A DNA stretch of 64,000 nt from Synergistaceae bacterium (GTDB lineage: Bacteria > Synergistota > Synergistia > Synergistales > Aminobacteriaceae), in assembly GCA_017439345.1 (NCBI GenBank), contig JAFSJJ010000020.1:1-64000 (forward strand), in the 5' to 3' direction. Below the pieces are notes generated by a model, which had not been told where the DNA came from, made no database searches, and saw only the letters and a program-made list of their open reading frames with translations. The position numbers and the translations under genes were made by a program. Positions 2,577 through 50,734 of this stretch are shown piece after piece (position 1 is the stretch's first letter; each line of letters starts with the position of its first letter).

Positions 2577-3695
2577 ATGGCAGACAACAAAGCACTACAC
2601 AGGGCAGCAAAGGCTCAGCAGGACGAGTTCTACACTCAGACTTTCGACATAGAAAACGAACTGCGCTATTACTTGGATCACTTCAGGGGCAAAAAGATTC
2701 TCTGCAACTGCGACGATCCATATGAGAGCAACTTCTTTAAATACTTCGCTGTAAGATTCAACCTGCTGAACTTGGCAAAATTAACTGCAACTTGCTACTC
2801 AGGTTCACCAATTGCACACAGTCAATTAACGTTCAACTTTGATGATGAAGACTCGCAAACTCAATCACGGACTCCATACTGCGCAGAGATTACGGAACTC
2901 AAGGACTACAACGGCGACACTGCTGAAGATTTGCAGGATATTCGCTACATTCTTGAACATAACACAGGCGGAGGAGTCAGAAAACTTCAAGGCAGCGGAG
3001 ATTTTCGTTCACCGGAATGCATAGAGCTGCTCAAGGAGTCTGATATTGTCGTTACTAATCCCCCGTTCTCGTTATTTCGTGAGTTCGTTGCATTGTTAAT
3101 GAAGTACGAGAAAGAATTTATCATAATCGGAAATATCAACGCTATAACTTACAAAGAAATATTCCCGTTGTTCATGCAAAATAAAATCTGGCTCGGTCAT
3201 GGCTTCAGAAACGGCAACGCATATTTTTCACTGCCCGCATCAAGTCAATCTGAGAAAGAAAGATTTGCTGCCGGAGTTTATGACAAAGAGAAGAGACTCG
3301 TTAAATTCCGTAATGCCTGCTGGTTCACGAACTTAGATCACGGCTGGAGACATAGAGATATAATTCTACACAGAAGCTATGAACGAGAGCCGGAGCTTTA
3401 TCCTAAATATGATAACTATGACGCTATCGAGGTCAGCAAAGTTGATGACATACCGGAAGACTATTACGGAGTCATGGGAGTGCCTGTAACTTTCATGGAC
3501 AAATATAACCCGGAACAATTTGAGATTTTAGGAATCACTCAGAGAGATTCGCCATTGAAGACGAGAAATTACACAAAGGATGACTGCCCAAATTACGGCG
3601 ACATGAATGCACGTGCTACAATCAGAGATAACAACGGCAAATTACGCAGCACATACGTTAGAATATTAATCAGGAGAAAGAAGGCAGACTCATAA
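2577..3695 (+). CDS. EcoRI-type adenine-specific DNA methyltransferase
   Basis: A 372-residue protein of the M.EcoRI family of N6-adenine methyltransferases, which use S-adenosylmethionine. The catalytic motif IV is seen as TNPPFSLFREF around residues 160-171. The N-terminal ILCNCDDPYESNFFKYF segment corresponds to the family's cofactor region. The next gene, a DUF262-HNH nuclease, begins 3 bases after the stop, so the two are probably one transcript and one modification/restriction unit. The partner is not an EcoRI-type endonuclease, so the target need not be GAATTC. A GGAG ribosome-binding site precedes the ATG. Confidence 0.85.
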   Translation: MADNKALHRAAKAQQDEFYTQTFDIENELRYYLDHFRGKKILCNCDDPYESNFFKYFAVRFNLLNLAKLTATCYSGSPIAHSQLTFNFDDEDSQTQSRTPYCAEITELKDYNGDTAEDLQDIRYILEHNTGGGVRKLQGSGDFRSPECIELLKESDIVVTNPPFSLFREFVALLMKYEKEFIIIGNINAITYKEIFPLFMQNKIWLGHGFRNGNAYFSLPASSQSEKERFAAGVYDKEKRLVKFRNACWFTNLDHGWRHRDIILHRSYEREPELYPKYDNYDAIEVSKVDDIPEDYYGVMGVPVTFMDKYNPEQFEILGITQRDSPLKTRNYTKDDCPNYGDMNARATIRDNNGKLRSTYVRILIRRKKADS

Positions 3696-12295: not shown

Positions 12296-12362
12296 CGATA
12301 ACCGATAACCGATAACCGATAACCGATAACCGATAACCGATAACCGATAACCGATAACCGAT
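12296..12362. repeat. Heptanucleotide tandem repeat CGATAAC, about 9.6 copies
   Basis: Nine uninterrupted copies of a 7-bp unit plus four bases of a tenth. The tract lies in the long leader between a likely promoter (12416-12424) and the ATP-grasp start codon (12179), so it should be transcribed as repeated GTTATCG. A two-unit remnant of the same heptamer occurs at 31651-31665 in the opposite orientation. Perfect short heptamer arrays are prone to copy-number change. A short open frame across it merely reads the repeat and is not a gene. Confidence 0.9.
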
Positions 12363-12415
12363 TTTAGCGGATTATGAATCATGTGTCAAGCTCCTTTTAT
12401 ATGAATTTTTGCAAG

Positions 12416-23631: not shown

Positions 23632-23826
23632 CAAAGCAAGTGTTGTATAATTCGCTTCACGAAAAATTTTCAGAGTTCCATCAACAAGAATATTTATTTA
23701 CCAGACGCATTAATTACTAATACATTTACTAATACAAAAATCGTTCGTAAAGTTTCATTGCGGGCTTTCTTACATCGTGCGGACGAATCAATAACTTGTT
23801 AATTTTACACGAGGTGATTATTTATC

Positions 23827-42163: not shown

Positions 42164-42565
42164 TTATTCTAGTGAAATCTCAAGAGTTACTCCTGATTTA
42201 TTAAGCATATTCTTTAGCTCTGATTGAGTCTTTCCTGTTATCCTGCCCAGCTTAGTATATGCCCACGAGTTAGAGCCGTGAAATATCACTATCTGATTAC
42301 CAGAATAAAGCACTATGTCTCCGGGCTGAGTCGTTATGCTAATATCACTTCGAGGGAGATTATGTCCCAGTGAACCGACCTGTTCAAAGCCTCCATAAGC
42401 TGACATTTTCACAGTCAGGGGCGCAAACTTTTTCAGGGCATTGACGCTCTCGTTATTTTCCCATTCGACAGGAATATTTTCGCCGTCAATCATGATATTA
42501 AGCTCAGAAGCATGACACGAACAAGCAAGCATTAATATAAACGCTGCAACAATTATTAACCGCAA
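42164..42565 (-). CDS. Exported cyclophilin-like fold protein
   Basis: A mature part of about 115 residues matches the small cyclophilin-like (DUF4115-unrelated, Cyclophil_like2-type) proteins: LNIMIDGENIPVEWENNESVNAL, MSAYGGFEQVGSLGHNLPRSD, PGDIVLYSGNQIVIFHGSNSWAYTKLG. A hydrophobic signal segment with LACSCHA precedes it. The frame is open further upstream to 42673, but that part reads through the 49-bp palindromic repeat, so I prefer a TTG start at 42565 with AAAGGA 12 bases ahead. The start is uncertain. Function unknown. Confidence 0.65.
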   Translation of the reverse strand: MRLIIVAAFILMLACSCHASELNIMIDGENIPVEWENNESVNALKKFAPLTVKMSAYGGFEQVGSLGHNLPRSDISITTQPGDIVLYSGNQIVIFHGSNSWAYTKLGRITGKTQSELKNMLNKSGVTLEISLE

Positions 42566-42609
42566 AATTTTTTCACATCCTTTGCAATATATTATTGAAC
42601 TGCATCCGT

Positions 42610-42658
42610 TATTTACCCCCACCCGCCCACCCTCACTACTGCGTAGCGAGGGTAAATA
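42610..42658 (-). repeat. 49-bp G-rich palindromic element, copy A
   Basis: Read on the minus strand: TATTTAC terminus, an 11-bp hairpin arm closing over a GCA loop (CTAC-GCA-GTAG core), a tract GGGTGGGCGGGTGGGG, then GTAAATA, which complements the first terminus. It is exactly the same length as copy B at 49672-49720 and about 84% identical, in the opposite orientation. Stem differences between the copies are compensatory. The G-tract could form a quadruplex. Confidence 0.85.
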
Positions 42659-42681
42659 GGTAGAAGAATTCATTCGTCTCT

Positions 42682-43608
42682 CTAAATTAATATTAACGCA
42701 ATTATAACCGAGCCTACTGCATGAACAAGCCAGAATCTTATTGTTACTGCCGTCTCATCGAGTCCCTTTAGCTGGTAGTGATGATGCAGAGGAGCCATCA
42801 GGAAAACTTTTTTGTTGAGCTTTCTTATCGTGAAAATCTGAATCGCTGAAGACAACATCTCGATTATAAATATAAATCCCGCAGGAATTATCGCAAGAGT
42901 ACGGCCGTTCATGACACATAGAGCCGCTAATGCCCCTCCCAAAAAGTGCGAACCTGTATCACCCATGAAAGTCTTTGCAGGACGTATATTAAAGAATAAG
43001 AAACCTGCTGTCATAAAGAATAACTCAATCAAAATTTTTGCGTTGAGACCTTCAACAGGTATTAATAGCAGGAAGACTCCGAGTGAGATAATAAAGCTCC
43101 CTCCTGCAAGTCCGTCAAGTCCGTCCGTAATATTTACTGCGTTAATTGTCCCGGCTGTCATCAAGAACGCTAGGGGAATCGCTAAGACTCCGTTCATGTC
43201 CCAGAGTCCAGGCCACAGAGCTAATTTGTTCATAAAGAATATCGCTAAGACCCAGACAGCGCAGAGAATTAATTGACACTTTAACTTCGCAAGACTCCTG
43301 AAGCCCTCGCTTGTGTGAGATCTAAACTTCATCCAGTCATCAATAAAGCCTATTAAGCCGCTCAAAACAGGAAGACTCCAGAAGATAAAACTATCAAACG
43401 AGAAATCTATTATCATTGCAAGTAAAGCTAACAACAAAAAAACGACTCCCCCCATAGAAGGAGTAGCCGCTTTAATCTCATTATCTATATTGACTCCGTA
43501 CCATTTTTGCTGCTGTGTAATATGTATTCTATTCTGAATCTTTATCCAGATAAATTGCAAAACTATGCTCAAGACAAAGAATATAATTCCCGTTAGAAAT
43601 AATTTCAT
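42682..43608 (-). CDS. mraY: Phospho-N-acetylmuramoyl-pentapeptide transferase
   Basis: Transfers phospho-MurNAc-pentapeptide to undecaprenyl phosphate, giving lipid I. 308 residues, about ten membrane helices, a little shorter than usual. Conserved Asp motifs are seen: NITDGLDGLAGG (about 155-166), FMGDTGSHFLGG (about 215-226), and the MAPLHHHYQLKG His motif near the C-terminus. Its start overlaps the murF stop by 4 bases. Confidence 0.95.
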   Translation of the reverse strand: MKLFLTGIIFFVLSIVLQFIWIKIQNRIHITQQQKWYGVNIDNEIKAATPSMGGVVFLLLALLAMIIDFSFDSFIFWSLPVLSGLIGFIDDWMKFRSHTSEGFRSLAKLKCQLILCAVWVLAIFFMNKLALWPGLWDMNGVLAIPLAFLMTAGTINAVNITDGLDGLAGGSFIISLGVFLLLIPVEGLNAKILIELFFMTAGFLFFNIRPAKTFMGDTGSHFLGGALAALCVMNGRTLAIIPAGFIFIIEMLSSAIQIFTIRKLNKKVFLMAPLHHHYQLKGLDETAVTIRFWLVHAVGSVIIALILI

Positions 43609-44957
43609 GCTTTGATTAAGTCCTTTACTATGTTAGAGAGTCCAAGACTGTTAGAGCCCTTGATTAATATTCCGTGCCAGCCGTTAGACATGACTTTATG
43701 AAGCTCATCAAGTGCCGTCTGCCATGTATCGCAATATACATAGCGTGAGTCATCGTTAAGTGCCTCGTGCCAAATTTCGCCGATTAATATTACTGACTCT
43801 ATTTCGTCAAGCAGAGGCTTTAAATTTTCATGATACTTTGCAGAATTTTCACCAAGTTCGCGCATTTCGCCTAAGACCGCAATTTTTCCCAGAGTCTTAA
43901 CTTTTGCGAACGTAGATAACGATGCACCCATTGAGGCAGGATTAGCGTTATATGAATCATCGACTATAAATTTGCTCTCGTTGACAAAAATTACTCTGCC
44001 CCGTCCCGGTAAAGCCTGAAAGTCTCTTAGAGAGTCAGCGCATTCTTTCAGACTCAAGCCGAGTTCACGTCCTGCAGCTCCGGCAATTGCCAGGGGTAAG
44101 GCGTTATGTTTTCCCCAGACGTTCGCAGTGAATCTCGCTATTTCCTGACTCTCCCTGTGAGCTAATACGAATGACATTGCAGGCAGATTATATTCTGATG
44201 AGTCATGACTGATCACATAATCTGAATATTTGTGAACTCCTACTCCCATAGATTTAACTACATACTTAAATGCTTCTGCGAGTAACTCATTGTCATTATT
44301 GAATATTATCTTATTTAGTATCGGCGAGTGAATGATTTCTAATTTCTCGTTCAAGACCCCGTTAATATCCCCGAAGCCCTCAAGGTGAACAGGAGCTACA
44401 GCAGTCAATATTGACATCGACGGCGGAAAATACTGCGTTAACTCTTTTATCTCTCCGGGCTTATTGGCTCCGAATTCAAGTATTAATATCTCTGTCTCTA
44501 AAGGCATTGCCATTATCGTAGCAGTACAGCCTATCAACGTGTTAAAACTGCGTTCGGGTGCATGGACGTTGAAGCGTGGACTCAAAACTTTTTGAATCGC
44601 TGCCCTTGTCGTTGTCTTGCCTACACTGCCGGTGATTGCAATTATCTCATGTAAGTTATGAGCCTTTAACTTATCCGAAGCAATTTGCGCTAAGTCCCGT
44701 TCAGGTTCGTCAAGTTCGATAACAGGCACGCTAACATTTTCGGGAGCTTTACCGGTTCTGACGATTAATAATCCTGCTCCGTTCTGTATAGCTTGAGGAA
44801 TATATTTATGACCGTCAGTCTTCTCGCCTTCAAGAGCTATAAACGCGCCCCCGTTGATAACATCTCTACTGTCGGTCGCTAAGTGTGAAGGGAAATCAAG
44901 ATTTGCGAACTCACTTTTTACCCTGTCGCCGAATAATTTTTCAAGAGTCGTATTCAT
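43605..44957 (-). CDS. murF: UDP-MurNAc-tripeptide--D-alanyl-D-alanine ligase
   Basis: About 450 residues. It has ATP loop ITGSVGKTTTRAAI, central EFGANKPGEIKEL, and C-terminal VDDSYNANPASMGASL, all characteristic of MurF. The ATG at 44957 lies 2 bases past the murE stop with GGAGGG upstream; a TTG at 44978 is also in frame. It overlaps mraY by 4 bases. Confidence 0.95.
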   Translation of the reverse strand: MNTTLEKLFGDRVKSEFANLDFPSHLATDSRDVINGGAFIALEGEKTDGHKYIPQAIQNGAGLLIVRTGKAPENVSVPVIELDEPERDLAQIASDKLKAHNLHEIIAITGSVGKTTTRAAIQKVLSPRFNVHAPERSFNTLIGCTATIMAMPLETEILILEFGANKPGEIKELTQYFPPSMSILTAVAPVHLEGFGDINGVLNEKLEIIHSPILNKIIFNNDNELLAEAFKYVVKSMGVGVHKYSDYVISHDSSEYNLPAMSFVLAHRESQEIARFTANVWGKHNALPLAIAGAAGRELGLSLKECADSLRDFQALPGRGRVIFVNESKFIVDDSYNANPASMGASLSTFAKVKTLGKIAVLGEMRELGENSAKYHENLKPLLDEIESVILIGEIWHEALNDDSRYVYCDTWQTALDELHKVMSNGWHGILIKGSNSLGLSNIVKDLIKA

Positions 44958-44959
44958 GA

Positions 44960-46441
44960 TTAGTGCGAGTCCCTCCAATGCTTTACGTGTTCAGTGTCGT
45001 TAAACGGTATCTTCTTATCTTTGATCGTAATAAATTTCTCCGGGCCCTTGCCTGTGATTACGAGTATGTCGCCTGCCTTCATCGAGTCAAGTGCTGATGT
45101 TACAGCTTCTCCCCTATCAGTAATTATCTTGTAGGGAACTGTAACACCTGACGCTATAGACACTGCAATTTTCATAGGATCTTCGTCTCTTGCATTATCT
45201 GACGTAATTATAACTTCATTAGCAAATTCTGAAGCTGCCCTGCCTAATTCAGGTCTATTTTGTTCGTAGCGTCCTCCGCCGTGGCCGAATATAGAAATTA
45301 TTCTCCTGTCAGAACCTGAGAGCTTTCTCAATGTGCCTAATACACTTCTCAAAGCTGAAGGGGTATGAGCGAAATCTACGAAGACACTTGCACCGTTATT
45401 CAAATCTATTCGTTCGAGTCTGCCGGGAACTTGGGGAACATTAGCGACTCCCCTGATAATTGCATCATCGTCAACTCGTCCGCGCATTGCTGTAACTGCA
45501 CACAAAGTATTCATTATATTGAAATCTCCTATTAACGGGCTGTGAAGTTCAAGTGTCTTAAATCCTTTGGCCTCGATAACTAAATCAGTTCCGTTAATGC
45601 TTGTCTGCGAGTGAATGACCCTTGAAGCTGCCCCCTCAGTCAGTCCGAAGCCTTGAAGTCTGCCGATCTCAGCGAGTAATCTTTTGCCGTATGAGTCATC
45701 AAAATTTGCTGCTCCTGTGAAGTCCGGCTTAGTATATTTCGTGAATAATAACTTCTTGGCCTCGAAATAATTTTCCATGTCCTTGTGAAAGTCCAGATGT
45801 TCCGGATATAAATTCGTGAACACTGCTACGTCATATAATGCTCCCTTGAGTCTTCCCAAGTAAAGACCGTGTGATGAAGTCTCCATGACGCAGGCACCGC
45901 AGCCGTTCTTGACCATGTTAGCAAGTTGTCTCTGAACAATGCAGCTCTCTGGAGTCGTCCTGTCAGCGTCCTTGTCATTGACTCCATCGCTTTCGATTAT
46001 AGTACCAAGCAAGCCCGTGCGAATTCCTGAAGCCTGAAGAATACTTCTGATTATGTAGGTCGTTGTAGTCTTGCCGTTAGTGCCTGTAACTCCGACCATT
46101 AATAACTTGCCTGCCGGATTGTCATAAACGAGTGAAGATACTTCGCCTAAATAATCTCTTACATGATTAACTATAATTTGAGGAAGCTCTGAGTCAACTT
46201 CCCGCTCGCATAATATTGCACACGCACCCTTTGACTCTGCGCTGTTTATAAAGTCATGTCCGTCGGAGTTCCCGCCCTTGATAGCTGCGAATAAAGTACC
46301 CGGTTTAACGTCTCTGCTGTCTGAAATTACATCGCTGATAAAAGTTTCTGCACTAAAATTGTCCTGATTCTTTACACGGACAGTATTATTTATATCTCTT
46401 GCCTGTATAAAGTTCAGGACATCTTTAAAGTTTACGCTCAA
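44960..46441 (-). CDS. murE: UDP-MurNAc-dipeptide--diamino acid ligase
   Basis: 493 residues in the Mur ligase layout with GVTGTNGKTTTTYIIRS, TPESCIVQRQLANM and FVDFAHTPSALRSVL. The amino-acid-specificity loop reads SDNARDEDPMKIA. It keeps the Arg of the DNPR motif found in meso-diaminopimelate-adding MurE, rather than the Lys-type variants, so mDAP peptidoglycan is predicted. Confidence 0.94.
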   Translation of the reverse strand: MSVNFKDVLNFIQARDINNTVRVKNQDNFSAETFISDVISDSRDVKPGTLFAAIKGGNSDGHDFINSAESKGACAILCEREVDSELPQIIVNHVRDYLGEVSSLVYDNPAGKLLMVGVTGTNGKTTTTYIIRSILQASGIRTGLLGTIIESDGVNDKDADRTTPESCIVQRQLANMVKNGCGACVMETSSHGLYLGRLKGALYDVAVFTNLYPEHLDFHKDMENYFEAKKLLFTKYTKPDFTGAANFDDSYGKRLLAEIGRLQGFGLTEGAASRVIHSQTSINGTDLVIEAKGFKTLELHSPLIGDFNIMNTLCAVTAMRGRVDDDAIIRGVANVPQVPGRLERIDLNNGASVFVDFAHTPSALRSVLGTLRKLSGSDRRIISIFGHGGGRYEQNRPELGRAASEFANEVIITSDNARDEDPMKIAVSIASGVTVPYKIITDRGEAVTSALDSMKAGDILVITGKGPEKFITIKDKKIPFNDTEHVKHWRDSH

Positions 46442-46490
46442 GTTTTAAACCTGCTTTCGTGAAAAAATTTTTATGAGTATATATTATTTA

Positions 46491-48179
46491 TCACGAAAAG
46501 TATTCAAGTTCTGCCATTTCCTCGACTATTGCCTTGAACGGTGGAGCAGCTAATTCACCGCCGTAATATCTTCCGCTGGTAGGTTCGCCGATAACGACGA
46601 GCATTAAATATTTTGGATCACTGTACGGCCAGAAGCCTATAAACGAAGCAACGTATCTATTTCGCGAATATCTGCCTCCTTCAGGTACCTGAGCAGTTCC
46701 CGTCTTGCCTGCTAATTCCGTGATTGTCGTAGCTGCCCTCTTGCCTGTACCTTCAAGGACTACCCTGCGCATTGCCGCTCGAATCCATTCTGCTGTCTCA
46801 GGTGTATAGACTTCCCGCATGACTTTAGGTTCACCCTTGTAGACTACTTCACCCAGTGAATTAACAGCTTCTTTCACGATATAGGGACTCATTAACTTGC
46901 CTCCATTGACTATTGCAGACATCGCCGTAGCCAATTGCAAAGGAGTTACTGCCAAGCCCTGACCTATTGCTATATTCGCAGGAGTAACACCTCGCCAGTT
47001 CTCAGGATATGGAAGGATGCCCCTTGCCACTCCGGGAAGTTCTATATCGCTCTCAGTGCCGAAGCCCAATGCAAGCAAGCTCTCATACATTTTAGTCTTC
47101 TCTGCTCTGACTCCTATTTGAGCCATTCCTACATTTGAAGATTTTATTAATAAATGCGCTGTATCTATATTGCCCATTGCCGTAGGATATGCTTCTGTTA
47201 TATAACCGTCAGCAACTTTGTATCTTGCAGGACAGAAGAACATCTCATCACGTCTTGCCCAGCCCCTTTCGAGAGCTACTCCCAAATATATAGGCTTGAA
47301 AGTTGATCCGGGTTCATAGCCTCGACTCACTACGCCGTTAGATAACGCTTCCATAGTTAAAGACTTTCTGTTATCAGGGTCATACGTAGGCCAGCTTGCC
47401 ATCGCGTAAATTTCTCCTGTATTAGGATTCATGCAGACACATGCTGCCCATTTAGCTCCGTCATCTTTTGCTGCCTTGAATAAATGCTTCTCGACTACGT
47501 ATTGAATTCTGCTGTCAAGTGTCAGCGTAACAACTGGAGTAACGTGCCTGCGTTCGGGTTCGCGTTCTAACATTGAGGCCGGCTGAGTCCCCGGTCTGCG
47601 AACAACTATTTTTTGTCCTGGAGGATTATATAAAGTCGAGTCCCATGCCTGCTCTATTCCTGCGAGTCCCCTGTTGTCGGTGTTGCAGAAGCCTAAAACG
47701 TGAGACATTAATCTTTGATTCGTATATTTCCTGTAGGGTTCATCTATTTCGATAAGTGCCTTAGTGTTTCGCATTAACAATCTGAATCTTTTCGTTAAGT
47801 TTTCAGGTGCCTTGTGAGTTATCCATAGAAAGCGCGACTTAGTACCCATTGCATTAGTTATCTTTTGCATTATATCCGGTGAGATAACTTGTGCGAGTTC
47901 GGGAAGGTCTTCCTGATTTATCATCGATGGATCAATTGCAAACGCAGGGAGGGCTTCTGTCATGACTAAAGCATTTCCCTTAACGTCCTGAATAATTCCG
48001 CGCGTAGACTTAAGAGGAACTTTCCGCCAGTACTGGTGCTGAGACTGCTGAACTACTCTAGGATTCGGCCAGCAGTGTCTGGCTGTCAAAGTTGCGCCTA
48101 TGATGATAAAGAATAATACAAATAATATCCAAGGGTTGCCAGCTCTGCCCCTGCGGACTCGTTTCTTGTGTGAAGCCAT
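46491..48179 (-). CDS. ftsI: Penicillin-binding protein, septal transpeptidase FtsI-like
   Basis: 562 residues. A single N-terminal membrane helix (WILFVLFFIIIGATLTA) is followed by a PBP dimerisation domain and a transpeptidase domain. The active-site motifs are SxxK in EPGSTFKPI, SxN in KSSNVGMA and KTG in AGKTGTAQVPEGG. No PASTA domains are attached. It cross-links septal peptidoglycan in partnership with FtsW. It lies 30 bases after the ftsL-like gene, in the canonical dcw position. Confidence 0.93.
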   Translation of the reverse strand: MASHKKRVRRGRAGNPWILFVLFFIIIGATLTARHCWPNPRVVQQSQHQYWRKVPLKSTRGIIQDVKGNALVMTEALPAFAIDPSMINQEDLPELAQVISPDIMQKITNAMGTKSRFLWITHKAPENLTKRFRLLMRNTKALIEIDEPYRKYTNQRLMSHVLGFCNTDNRGLAGIEQAWDSTLYNPPGQKIVVRRPGTQPASMLEREPERRHVTPVVTLTLDSRIQYVVEKHLFKAAKDDGAKWAACVCMNPNTGEIYAMASWPTYDPDNRKSLTMEALSNGVVSRGYEPGSTFKPIYLGVALERGWARRDEMFFCPARYKVADGYITEAYPTAMGNIDTAHLLIKSSNVGMAQIGVRAEKTKMYESLLALGFGTESDIELPGVARGILPYPENWRGVTPANIAIGQGLAVTPLQLATAMSAIVNGGKLMSPYIVKEAVNSLGEVVYKGEPKVMREVYTPETAEWIRAAMRRVVLEGTGKRAATTITELAGKTGTAQVPEGGRYSRNRYVASFIGFWPYSDPKYLMLVVIGEPTSGRYYGGELAAPPFKAIVEEMAELEYFS

Positions 48180-48209
48180 GTTGTGAATGAGAATGAGTGA
48201 ATTGTTATC

Positions 48210-48596
48210 TTACTGTCTCCCGAAGAGCCATGCGAGACTCGATCTCCAGCCCGTGCGCCTTGAGTCATTATTATTATTCGATGCCGCAAGACCTGTGCTT
48301 CTGACTCTGATTGAAAGGGTCTCAGCCTTGAGAACTTTCTGCATTCCCAGACTCTCTTTGCAGTACGAGTAAATTCTTATGGGTGCAACAAGAGCAGATA
48401 ACTCCTGACGCAGCATAACTTCTTCATCTGAATATTTCTGAATGGATTGATTGACTGACTCAAGATAATAAGCCAATCGTGCAGCATGGAATCTCAATAT
48501 GCCGAGTCCTATAACAAGACCTACTGCTACACTTAAGGCAGCGACAAATTTTAATGTTATCCTGAATTTGTTTTTGTTTTTATTTGATTTACGCAC
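48210..48596 (-). CDS. FtsL-like small division protein
   Basis: 128 residues. It has a basic N-terminus, one membrane helix (KFVAALSVAVGLVIGLGILRF) and a short periplasmic coiled coil (YLESVNQSIQKYSDEEVMLRQELSAL), then a variable tail. Sequence alone is weak, but topology and its place between rsmH and ftsI fit FtsL, which bridges FtsQ and FtsI/FtsW. Confidence 0.7.
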   Translation of the reverse strand: MRKSNKNKNKFRITLKFVAALSVAVGLVIGLGILRFHAARLAYYLESVNQSIQKYSDEEVMLRQELSALVAPIRIYSYCKESLGMQKVLKAETLSIRVRSTGLAASNNNNDSRRTGWRSSLAWLFGRQ

Positions 48597-48654
48597 TCTC
48601 CTTCGCCCCCTGATTCCTTCCCTGAAAAAATTTTGAAAAACTTATTGCGTGAAT

Positions 48655-48663
48655 ATAATAGCA
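48655..48663 (-). promoter_or_regulatory. Internal extended -10 promoter ahead of ftsL
   Basis: TG-C-TATTAT on the minus strand in the 90-base gap between rsmH and the ftsL-like gene. It may allow part of the cluster to be transcribed independently of rsmH. Confidence 0.4.
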
Positions 48664-48686
48664 TAATTTGCTAAAAATACCTAGTG

Positions 48687-49598
48687 CTAAATCAGAAATT
48701 TTGCGTTGTATTTTATCGTTAAGAATGCCCTTAACTTTGCGCTTCGAGCTTTGTAGTTATTCCCGATCTCTGAATCCGAAGGCGTCAACGGGTGCTTTGT
48801 CAATATTCTGCCTTTGTTATCATTCTGCCATTGTCTGAACGAGTGCTTTATTATCCTGTCCTCGAGCGAATGATACGACACGAATATAATTAATGCATCG
48901 TGATTTATTTTTTCAAGAGTCATTATCACCCTTTCAAGTTCTTCTGTTTCATTATTCACGTAAATTCTTAATGCCTGAAAGACTCTCCGCGCCGGGTGAG
49001 TTCCCATTTTTCTTTGGACAGGCTGAGGCAATGCACTTCTTATCACATTAACAAGTTCTGAAGTCGTATTGATGGCTGATTTATTTTTCTTTATCGCAGA
49101 AGCTATTAACCGTGAAAATTTCTCTTCGCCGTAATCATAAAAAATTTTCGCAAGAGTCTTCTCATCAGATTCTCTTAACACGTCCGCAGCAGTCATCGAG
49201 TCGCCTGAAGGATTCATTCTCATGTCTAAGAGTCCTTCAGAGTTGAACGAGAAGCCGCGCTCAGGAAGAGTCAACTGCATGTTAGAGACTCCTAAATCAA
49301 ACATGAAGACATCAAACGGAGCGTGATTATTAATTATCGTGTCCATGTCTCCGAAGTTTGCGTGAATGGCTTCAAAGCGTGAAGTGTCCTCGTAGTCTTT
49401 GAGTCTCTCTCGTGAGAGTCTTATTGCTTCTTCGTCTCTATCAAGGCCAAGAACGTACGAGTCACCGAATCTTTCGAGCACTGCCTGAGAGTAGCCGCCG
49501 AGTCCGAGTGTTGCGTCAAGTATTCTTAAGTGTGATTTATTTGCATGAGTCGTAATTAATTCGAGAACTTCATTTAACATTACAGGTATGTGATTCAT
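48687..49598 (-). CDS. rsmH: 16S rRNA (cytosine(1402)-N(4))-methyltransferase
   Basis: 303 residues, the first gene of the dcw cluster here. It has HIPVMLNEVLELI at the start, SAM loop DATLGLGGYSQAVLE, MFDLGVSNMQL, and C-terminal YHSLEDRIIKHSFR. It methylates C1402 of 16S rRNA. The usual upstream mraZ is not present. Confidence 0.95.
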   Translation of the reverse strand: MNHIPVMLNEVLELITTHANKSHLRILDATLGLGGYSQAVLERFGDSYVLGLDRDEEAIRLSRERLKDYEDTSRFEAIHANFGDMDTIINNHAPFDVFMFDLGVSNMQLTLPERGFSFNSEGLLDMRMNPSGDSMTAADVLRESDEKTLAKIFYDYGEEKFSRLIASAIKKNKSAINTTSELVNVIRSALPQPVQRKMGTHPARRVFQALRIYVNNETEELERVIMTLEKINHDALIIFVSYHSLEDRIIKHSFRQWQNDNKGRILTKHPLTPSDSEIGNNYKARSAKLRAFLTIKYNAKFLI

Positions 49599-49626
49599 TT
49601 TGTGATTCGATTCCTTTTTTGCGAGT

Positions 49627-49635
49627 ATGATAGCA
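49627..49635 (-). promoter_or_regulatory. Extended -10 promoter of the dcw (rsmH) operon
   Basis: TG-C-TATCAT on the minus strand, about 29 bases upstream of the rsmH ATG. It lies in the 350-base spacer between rsmH and the divergent winged-helix gene. That spacer otherwise holds only the palindromic repeat copy B and A+T-rich sequence. Confidence 0.45.
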
Positions 49636-49671
49636 CATCGATAAAGTCAGCGTGCGAATGAATCTTTTACT

Positions 49672-49720
49672 TATTTACTCAGTCTACGCAGTAGGCTGGG
49701 TGGGTGGGTGGGGGTAAATA
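49672..49720 (+). repeat. 49-bp G-rich palindromic element, copy B
   Basis: TATTTAC terminus, an 11-bp hairpin (ACTCAGTCTAC over GCA to GTAGGCTGGGT, G-U pairs allowed), the tract GGGTGGGTGGGG, and complementary terminus GTAAATA. Copy A (42610-42658) is inverted relative to it. The two bracket the rsmH-ftsL-ftsI-murE-murF-mraY block. The shape recalls REP-type elements mobilised in trans. Confidence 0.85.
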
Positions 49721-49948
49721 ACACTTGCCTTTTACGTGCCTTGCATAAACATTGAAGAGCTAGCAAAAATTTTTTCTGTGTGAAGTCTTGCAGCTTATAA
49801 ACGAGTCAAAACTTTTTGTATTAGTAATTGTATTAGTAACTCGGTGAGTGATTTGTGAATAAGCAAACATGCAGTAAAATTATAAATCACGTTCAGAATA
49901 ATATAAATAACAGCCAGACAAAATTTTTTTAGCAAGGTGTGATCATCA

Positions 49949-50734
49949 ATGCCCGTAAAAAATGCTGTTGAAATCGTACAGGAAATTATTAACATGCAGA
50001 AACGCCCCTTCATGACAGTCAAGAACTTAGCTCTTGTAATGGGTGCTCAGTTACGAAGGCAGTTAGGACTCGAAGACTGTAAAACAAGTGCAGAAATAAA
50101 ACGCGCTCTTGAACCCCTACTAGGCGGCAAATTTATTTTTCACAAGAAAGGTGCTTTTCTTTATATTCTCGTTCCCTGTGATCCTGTTGACTTAGTCAGA
50201 ACCGAACTCTCAACCGAACAGCCCAAAGGTGCAGCAGGTATCGCTTCAGTATTGCCGTACTCGAAAGCTGACGTATCGAGAATATTGAATCACCTGTTAG
50301 ACACAGGAGAAGCGAAATTGATTCTTAGTGAAAATCTTGCAACTAGAATTATAGCTACAGGTCATAAAGCAGCCGATACGCATGAAGTTTACGAGTTTAA
50401 CTCAGAGTCAGAGTCAGAGCCTGAGCCGGAGTCTAAAGCACAGCAGGGACTCGAGCAAGTGCAGGAGTCAAATTTAAGTTTCAGTCAGAAGAAATTCATT
50501 AACGCACTTAGAGAACTTGACAACGGAAATTATTTCGTGAAAATTTTTGCATTGCGTCAAAAACTTAACTGGCCCCGCGAAGTCTTTGATGACATGTTAA
50601 GAGAACTCAGGGACAAAGAAATTATTCAGATGCACATAGCTGACACGACTCTAATGACTCCTGATGAAGTTAATGACTGCTTTATCGACGAGAATAATTA
50701 CAGAATGGGAACGGTAACGCTAAATGCCAGATAA
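49949..50734 (+). CDS. Multi-winged-helix protein, first gene of an ATPase/nuclease/pseudopilin operon
   Basis: 261 residues, no family recognised with confidence. Three winged-helix-like segments can be seen: residues 5-85 (NAVEIVQEII...KGAFLYILVP), 95-135 (GIASVLPYSKADVSRILNHLLDTGEAKLIL) and 170-235 (SFSQKKFINALREL...FDDMLRELRDKEIIQMHI). The second and third are split by an acidic Ser-Glu-Pro linker. No membrane segment is present. Its end overlaps the ATPase start by 11 bases. It is probably a DNA-binding or adaptor partner of that ATPase. Confidence 0.65.
   Translation: MPVKNAVEIVQEIINMQKRPFMTVKNLALVMGAQLRRQLGLEDCKTSAEIKRALEPLLGGKFIFHKKGAFLYILVPCDPVDLVRTELSTEQPKGAAGIASVLPYSKADVSRILNHLLDTGEAKLILSENLATRIIATGHKAADTHEVYEFNSESESEPEPESKAQQGLEQVQESNLSFSQKKFINALRELDNGNYFVKIFALRQKLNWPREVFDDMLRELRDKEIIQMHIADTTLMTPDEVNDCFIDENNYRMGTVTLNAR

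Follow-up and report, generated by a model that had tools for sequence, protein, structure and literature searches.

A probable superfamily of small, dispersed REP/MITE-like repeats with a conserved G-quadruplex motif in a Synergistaceae bacterium and its relatives

The elements described here share a conserved heart, four GGG tracts on one strand joined by loops of a single pyrimidine, set in a duplex that has been rebuilt by compensatory change. They probably represent a dispersed, nonautonomous superfamily of REP/MITE-like repeats, almost confined to one genus, in which the quadruplex is the conserved part. A preliminary description had reported only two inverted copies, in the 64-kb stretch of DNA analyzed here (the window), and had likened them to REP elements bracketing dcw genes. 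The superfamily is real, larger and more unusual than that; it is neither a Y1-type REP family nor a feature of the dcw cluster.

Both 49-mers lie where they had been placed, at positions 42610-42658 on the minus strand (copy A) and 49672-49720 on the plus strand (copy B). The homology is longer than 49 bp: a repeat search of the window returned inverted 60-nt arms that are 83% complementary, and the family aligns over about 76 nt, so the full members occupy 42594-42669 (copy A, minus; covariance model score 95.4, E 1.8e-21) and 49661-49736 (copy B, plus; score 97.3, E 5.6e-22). A pattern search of the window gave these 2 matches against 0.24 expected, and no third copy. Across the home genome (2.54 Mb in 46 contigs), seven full 49-mers were found at three or fewer mismatches, with none in the reversed-pattern control, and two more copies differ within the G-tract, by a swap or by one added base. 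The genome-wide covariance-model search that had been suggested returned nine strong matches to the 76-nt family (E <= 3e-20) and at least four weaker variants, one clear (contig C5, E 1.3e-7) and three weak. In three of these four, GGGGAAAAGTCCCTNAATGGGAGTTTTCGGGG or something near it takes the place of the G-tract; the remaining one follows a full copy as a second unit. The copies are thus dispersed, and not the isolated pair that would have emptied the earlier proposal. Variant units with a GAAAAGTCCCTNAATGGGAGTTTTC palindrome in the place of the G-tract are found at C5:95552, C20:6885 and C20:39859 and, as second units, on C16 and C18; two of these variants immediately follow a quadruplex unit. 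The window also holds another dispersed repeat, TTTTTGTATTAGTAATTGTATTAGTAA, at 49813-49839 (plus; 93 bp from copy B) and 23714-23740 (minus), which is resembled by TGTATTAGTAAATGTATTAGTAA near position 3615 (minus) of L049 and beside which we set TGTAGTTGTAAATGTAGTTG, found upstream of rsmH in relative G017. At 12296-12369, the 7-bp unit CGATAAC is repeated in a short tandem array.

On the G-rich strand, the window type runs from an arm [TC]ATTTAC[CT]C through a 7-bp inner hairpin with loop GCA or GTA and the tract GGGTGGG[CT]GGGTGGG to the arm G[AG]GTAAAT[AG]; an outer stem of 8-9 bp thereby encloses the 7-bp hairpin and a perfect GGGTGGGYGGGTGGG motif. Covariation and fold assign the stems, and motif search and fold the quadruplex motif. 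In copy A (minus strand), the 5' arm of the outer stem, TATTTACCC (42650-42658), pairs with GGGTAAATA (42610-42618), flanking the inner hairpin TCGCTAC-GCA-GTAGTGA (42633-42649) and the four-tract motif GGGTGGGCGGGTGGG (42618-42632). In copy B (plus strand), TATTTACTC (49672-49680) pairs with GGGTAAATA (49712-49720) through one T-G wobble, around the inner hairpin AGTCTAC-GCA-GTAGGCT (49681-49697) and the motif GGGTGGGTGGGTGGG (49698-49712). All 16 pairs are standard in every cell of the alignment of the nine home-genome copies (100% paired), and five of them have changed on both sides, which bears out the earlier claim of compensatory stem changes. When three relatives are added, 12 of the 16 pairs change on both sides among the four species, a count that leans toward structure because the alignment was fitted to it; one example is the replacement of TATTTAC/GTAAATA by TATTCTAC/GTAGAATA. 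The covariation score with the relatives is 0.503, versus 0.18 for shuffled and at most 0.10 for slid controls.

All 12 G residues of the tracts are invariant in the nine home-genome copies, and the quadruplex loops are T or C; a relative's copy, L064, has only three G-tracts. With its four GGG tracts, short loops and conservation, the motif has the makings of a G-quadruplex, whose physical formation is a prediction. Copy A is predicted to fold at -47.9 kcal/mol with the quadruplex and -21.7 kcal/mol without it, the DNA quadruplex energies being computed with RNA quadruplex parameters. In the predicted fold, quadruplex, outer stem and inner hairpin are stacked with zero linkers. Moreover, the wobbles in window-type stems, read on the G strand, are nine G-T and no A-C, which, although the counts are not independent, points to the G strand as the one that folds; hairpin-type stems offered too few cases for the same comparison. 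None of 14 element loci matched an Rfam 15 covariance model at E values up to 1.

Beyond the home genome, a second covariance model located about 20 window-type copies in relative G062; for G016 and G017 the number is one to a few. In its weak matches, the motif forms the loop of a hairpin with unrelated stems. At least three architectures have the motif in common: the window type, this hairpin type, and a type flanked by short direct repeats. In the hairpin type, the motif often sits on a tandem GA step, GAGC[motif]AGCGA, and the stems are copy-specific: stems of at least 7 bp occur in 82% of cases in G063 and 55% in G024, versus 0.35% with shuffled flanks and 21% (G063) and 3% (G024) with flanks swapped within the genome. 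The stems are species-specific, and the motif is not. Flanks of the three architectures do not align; their putative union in one superfamily rests on the shared motif, together with a shared habit.

Counts of GGGYGGGYGGGYGGG reach 79 in G017, 61 in G062, 32 in G063 and 24 in G024; among the 43 genus genomes its occurrence is otherwise sporadic, and most of them have few or no copies. Six G062 contigs (C6, C36, C71, C73, C132 and C133) stop at or inside elements, so the true copy numbers are probably higher. Outside the genus, the order was represented by 137 genomes, and only five of these carry the motif, one or two times each. A scan of 84,980 species, a set from which the home genome may be absent, gave zero matches to the window type; the GC-rich hairpin type was found there only in Chthonomonas sp. 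UBA2362, and viral contigs had none. This unrelated organism carries a perfect stem-quadruplex-stem, CTGGCCGGGCCGCCGG[GGGTGGGCGGGTGGG]CCGGCGGCCCGGCCAG (L243 near 5100, L244 near 3340), either by convergence or by transfer.

Each architecture has its own preferred intergenic niche, as judged with simple ORF calls taken as genes. The copies are mostly intergenic and oriented, a point the preliminary description had left to be checked: 10 of the 12 window-type sites in the home genome start 0-40 bp past a same-strand stop codon, and in tandem contexts across species the window type is sense in 15 cases and antisense in 2 (p = 0.002). Hairpin-type elements lie between converging genes at 19 of 33 classified sites; the direct-repeat type does so at only 4 of 43 (p = 8e-6) and favors divergent junctions (p = 3e-4). 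An ordinary intrinsic terminator stands directly before some hairpin-type copies; at copies A and B, no intrinsic terminator was called and no U-tract (T-tract) follows the stem. About eight junctions bear an element in two species, versus two to three expected by a rough estimate (copies times copies over 2000 genes). These include the junction behind mraY, used by copy A in the home genome and by an element in G063, and others involving the home C16 and C31 copies and G062 copies. Such reuse by different families would be produced equally by insertion hot spots.

Copy A starts 12 bp past the stop of mraY (42682-43608, minus) on the same strand and is followed by a cyclophilin-like gene (42164-42565, minus; PF18050; TTG start at 42565 inferred from the G030 homologue), and copy B lies between the divergent rsmH (48687-49598, minus) and a gene at 49949-50734 (plus) with no Pfam match. 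The copies do bracket six dcw genes, rsmH to mraY, in inverted orientation, which might suggest a functional pair that inverts or insulates the dcw operon. However, the family is dispersed, and two of its copies can be expected to fall this near each other by chance (P 0.18 with 9 copies, 0.36 with 13). Where relatives have kept the neighboring genes, the element is missing from both junctions: the junction of rsmH with the gene at 49949 is retained in five species without it, and in G030, G031 and G032 the same cyclophilin-like gene directly follows mraY with the element absent. Copy A therefore did not create the interruption of the cluster, at which it had been noted to sit, and a dcw-specific pair is improbable in the extreme. 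A second reading takes the repeats for classical REPs mobilized by a Y1 (RAYT/TnpA-REP) transposase. The elements are dispersed palindromes near gene ends with GTAG in a hairpin, and copies inside genes are known for REPs too (PMC3733652). Like REPs, they are repeated, folded and mostly extragenic, with many copies, the home genome being low at 9-13, and this much of the proposed REP likeness stands, with a quadruplex in addition. In contrast, the GTAG that had inspired the comparison forms the 3' side of the inner hairpin stem, beside the loop and paired with CTAC, and it reads GCAG or GCGG in relatives. Searches with PF01797 found in the home genome only an IS605-type tnpA beside tnpB and a fragment at a contig end, with no solo Y1 gene in this draft, and found none in the draft genomes of G062, which has about 20 window-type copies, and G017; the Y1 transposase that had been proposed as the mover thus has no counterpart beyond the intact IS605 tnpA. 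This IS605-type element (L049, 7829-9419) carries terminal hairpins CTCCTACTTCCATAAGTGGGAG and GCTCCCGCTTCTATAAGCGGGGG; its ends were considered as a source of the repeats and rejected, being unlike the element. Classical Y1-driven REPs are therefore very unlikely.

Several observations suggest that the elements have moved. Four hairpin copies lie in frame within protein genes, those for DnaX, Der, a YedF-like protein and a CobD-like protein. In G024, the inter-GTPase linker of Der measures 47 residues versus 9 in PDB 2hjg, and in the CobD-like protein an insert of 48 residues holds the motif where PDB 3fkd has one or two; in G063, DnaX and the YedF-like protein have the peptide SAAPSHPPTPVAA in common. 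An ORF under one of two nearby G024 motifs (L280), considered as a transposase, is not one and corresponds to the CobD-like insertion. At an orthologous converging junction, G017 and G062 bear hairpin-type elements in opposite orientation (L204/L126). The conserved junctions that lack the element in relatives, for both window copies, and the species-specific stems around a motif that is not species-specific also speak for movement. On the other side, the C5 and C20 variants carry a different insert in place of the quadruplex motif, and the L064 copy has one G-tract fewer. Inverted arms TATTTAC/GTAAATA are present, yet the conserved sequence extends beyond them. No target-site duplication was recognized by eye in nine copies, no exact empty site was found among the relatives compared, none of which is close, and no mobilizer gene was identified, Y1 genes having been searched by PF01797; movement is accordingly something we infer rather than observe.

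The principal competing explanation is that these are host-maintained transcription or mRNA 3'-end elements that mark, stabilize or terminate transcripts, with dispersal a by-product of need. The placement of window-type copies just behind same-strand stops and their sense bias in tandem contexts speak for it, as do the concentration of the hairpin type between converging genes, the exclusive G-T wobbles on the G strand and, on the rough estimate above, the excess of junctions bearing an element in two species. Against it, both window copies lack a U-tract and a terminator call, and hairpin-type elements often have an ordinary intrinsic terminator ahead of them. Moreover, in tandem contexts the mRNA carries the C-rich strand of hairpin-type copies (10 to 3) but the G-rich strand of window-type ones, which counts against one shared RNA role; most genomes of the genus have few or no copies; and in-frame copies in coding linkers are not 3'-end elements. 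We regard such a host function as unlikely, although niche preference and repeated junction use fit it too. Under the dispersed-repeat reading, which we favor, the nonautonomous elements would be spread in trans by an enzyme acting on the folded G-rich single strand, an action that would parallel that of Y1 transposases on REP hairpins. Most insertions would be removed by selection, so that survivors would be found past stop codons, upstream of genes and in the gaps where genes converge. As a side effect, the fold may block or mark transcript ends. More tentatively, and with some doubt on our part, the G-quadruplex may itself be the mobility signal, one trans enzyme acting on any cassette with GGGTGGGYGGGTGGG in a foldable frame; with GGGTGGGYGGGTGGG as the recognition signal, stems and flanks would be free to diverge into several families in one genus.

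Parallels to individual features exist. Rickettsia palindromic elements are known as in-frame insertions in protein genes, a feature they share with the present elements, and both they and MITEs are small nonautonomous repeats with inverted ends, as the present elements may be; here, however, neither a cognate transposase nor a target duplication was found, and the center is conserved rather than the ends. Quadruplex-duplex hybrids form a structural class in which a duplex stem is stacked on a quadruplex. The same stacking is predicted for the hairpin type, which differs in being a naturally repeated bacterial element family. REPs lie near stop codons, between tandem or converging genes and occasionally inside genes (PMC3733652). 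The present repeats are like REPs, BIMEs and REPINs in being short dispersed palindromes with compensatory stems, similar positions and occasional in-gene copies, but they have no unpaired GTAG/CGTC tag and no cognate Y1 gene, and what stays constant in them is a four-tract G-quadruplex, not a tag plus hairpin. Tetraplex formation in solution is known for REP oligonucleotides, as two- or four-stranded structures in equilibrium with other forms (PMC7709200). The GGGNATC quadruplex repeats of Xanthomonas and Nostoc are simple, stemless tandem heptamers; they too are dispersed, mostly noncoding, quadruplex-forming and often on the sense strand near stop codons (PMC4692102), whereas here a single fixed-loop motif sits in a covarying duplex and coding insertions occur. 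No earlier description of the family was found in the literature on quadruplexes combined with MITEs, REPs, Synergistetes or prokaryotic quadruplex-duplex structures, in a search that scarcely covered subscription journals.

Tags and hairpins are the hallmarks of small dispersed repeats in bacteria; in the present elements, which have several unrelated flanks and include in-frame copies within conserved genes, it is a quadruplex that stays invariant. If that quadruplex acts as the signal by which they spread, it would be a new substrate for a DNA-mobilizing enzyme. If the elements instead serve their host, the dozens of quadruplexes that occur naturally at gene ends, with a bias in orientation, would provide a clean system for the effect of quadruplexes on bacterial transcription.
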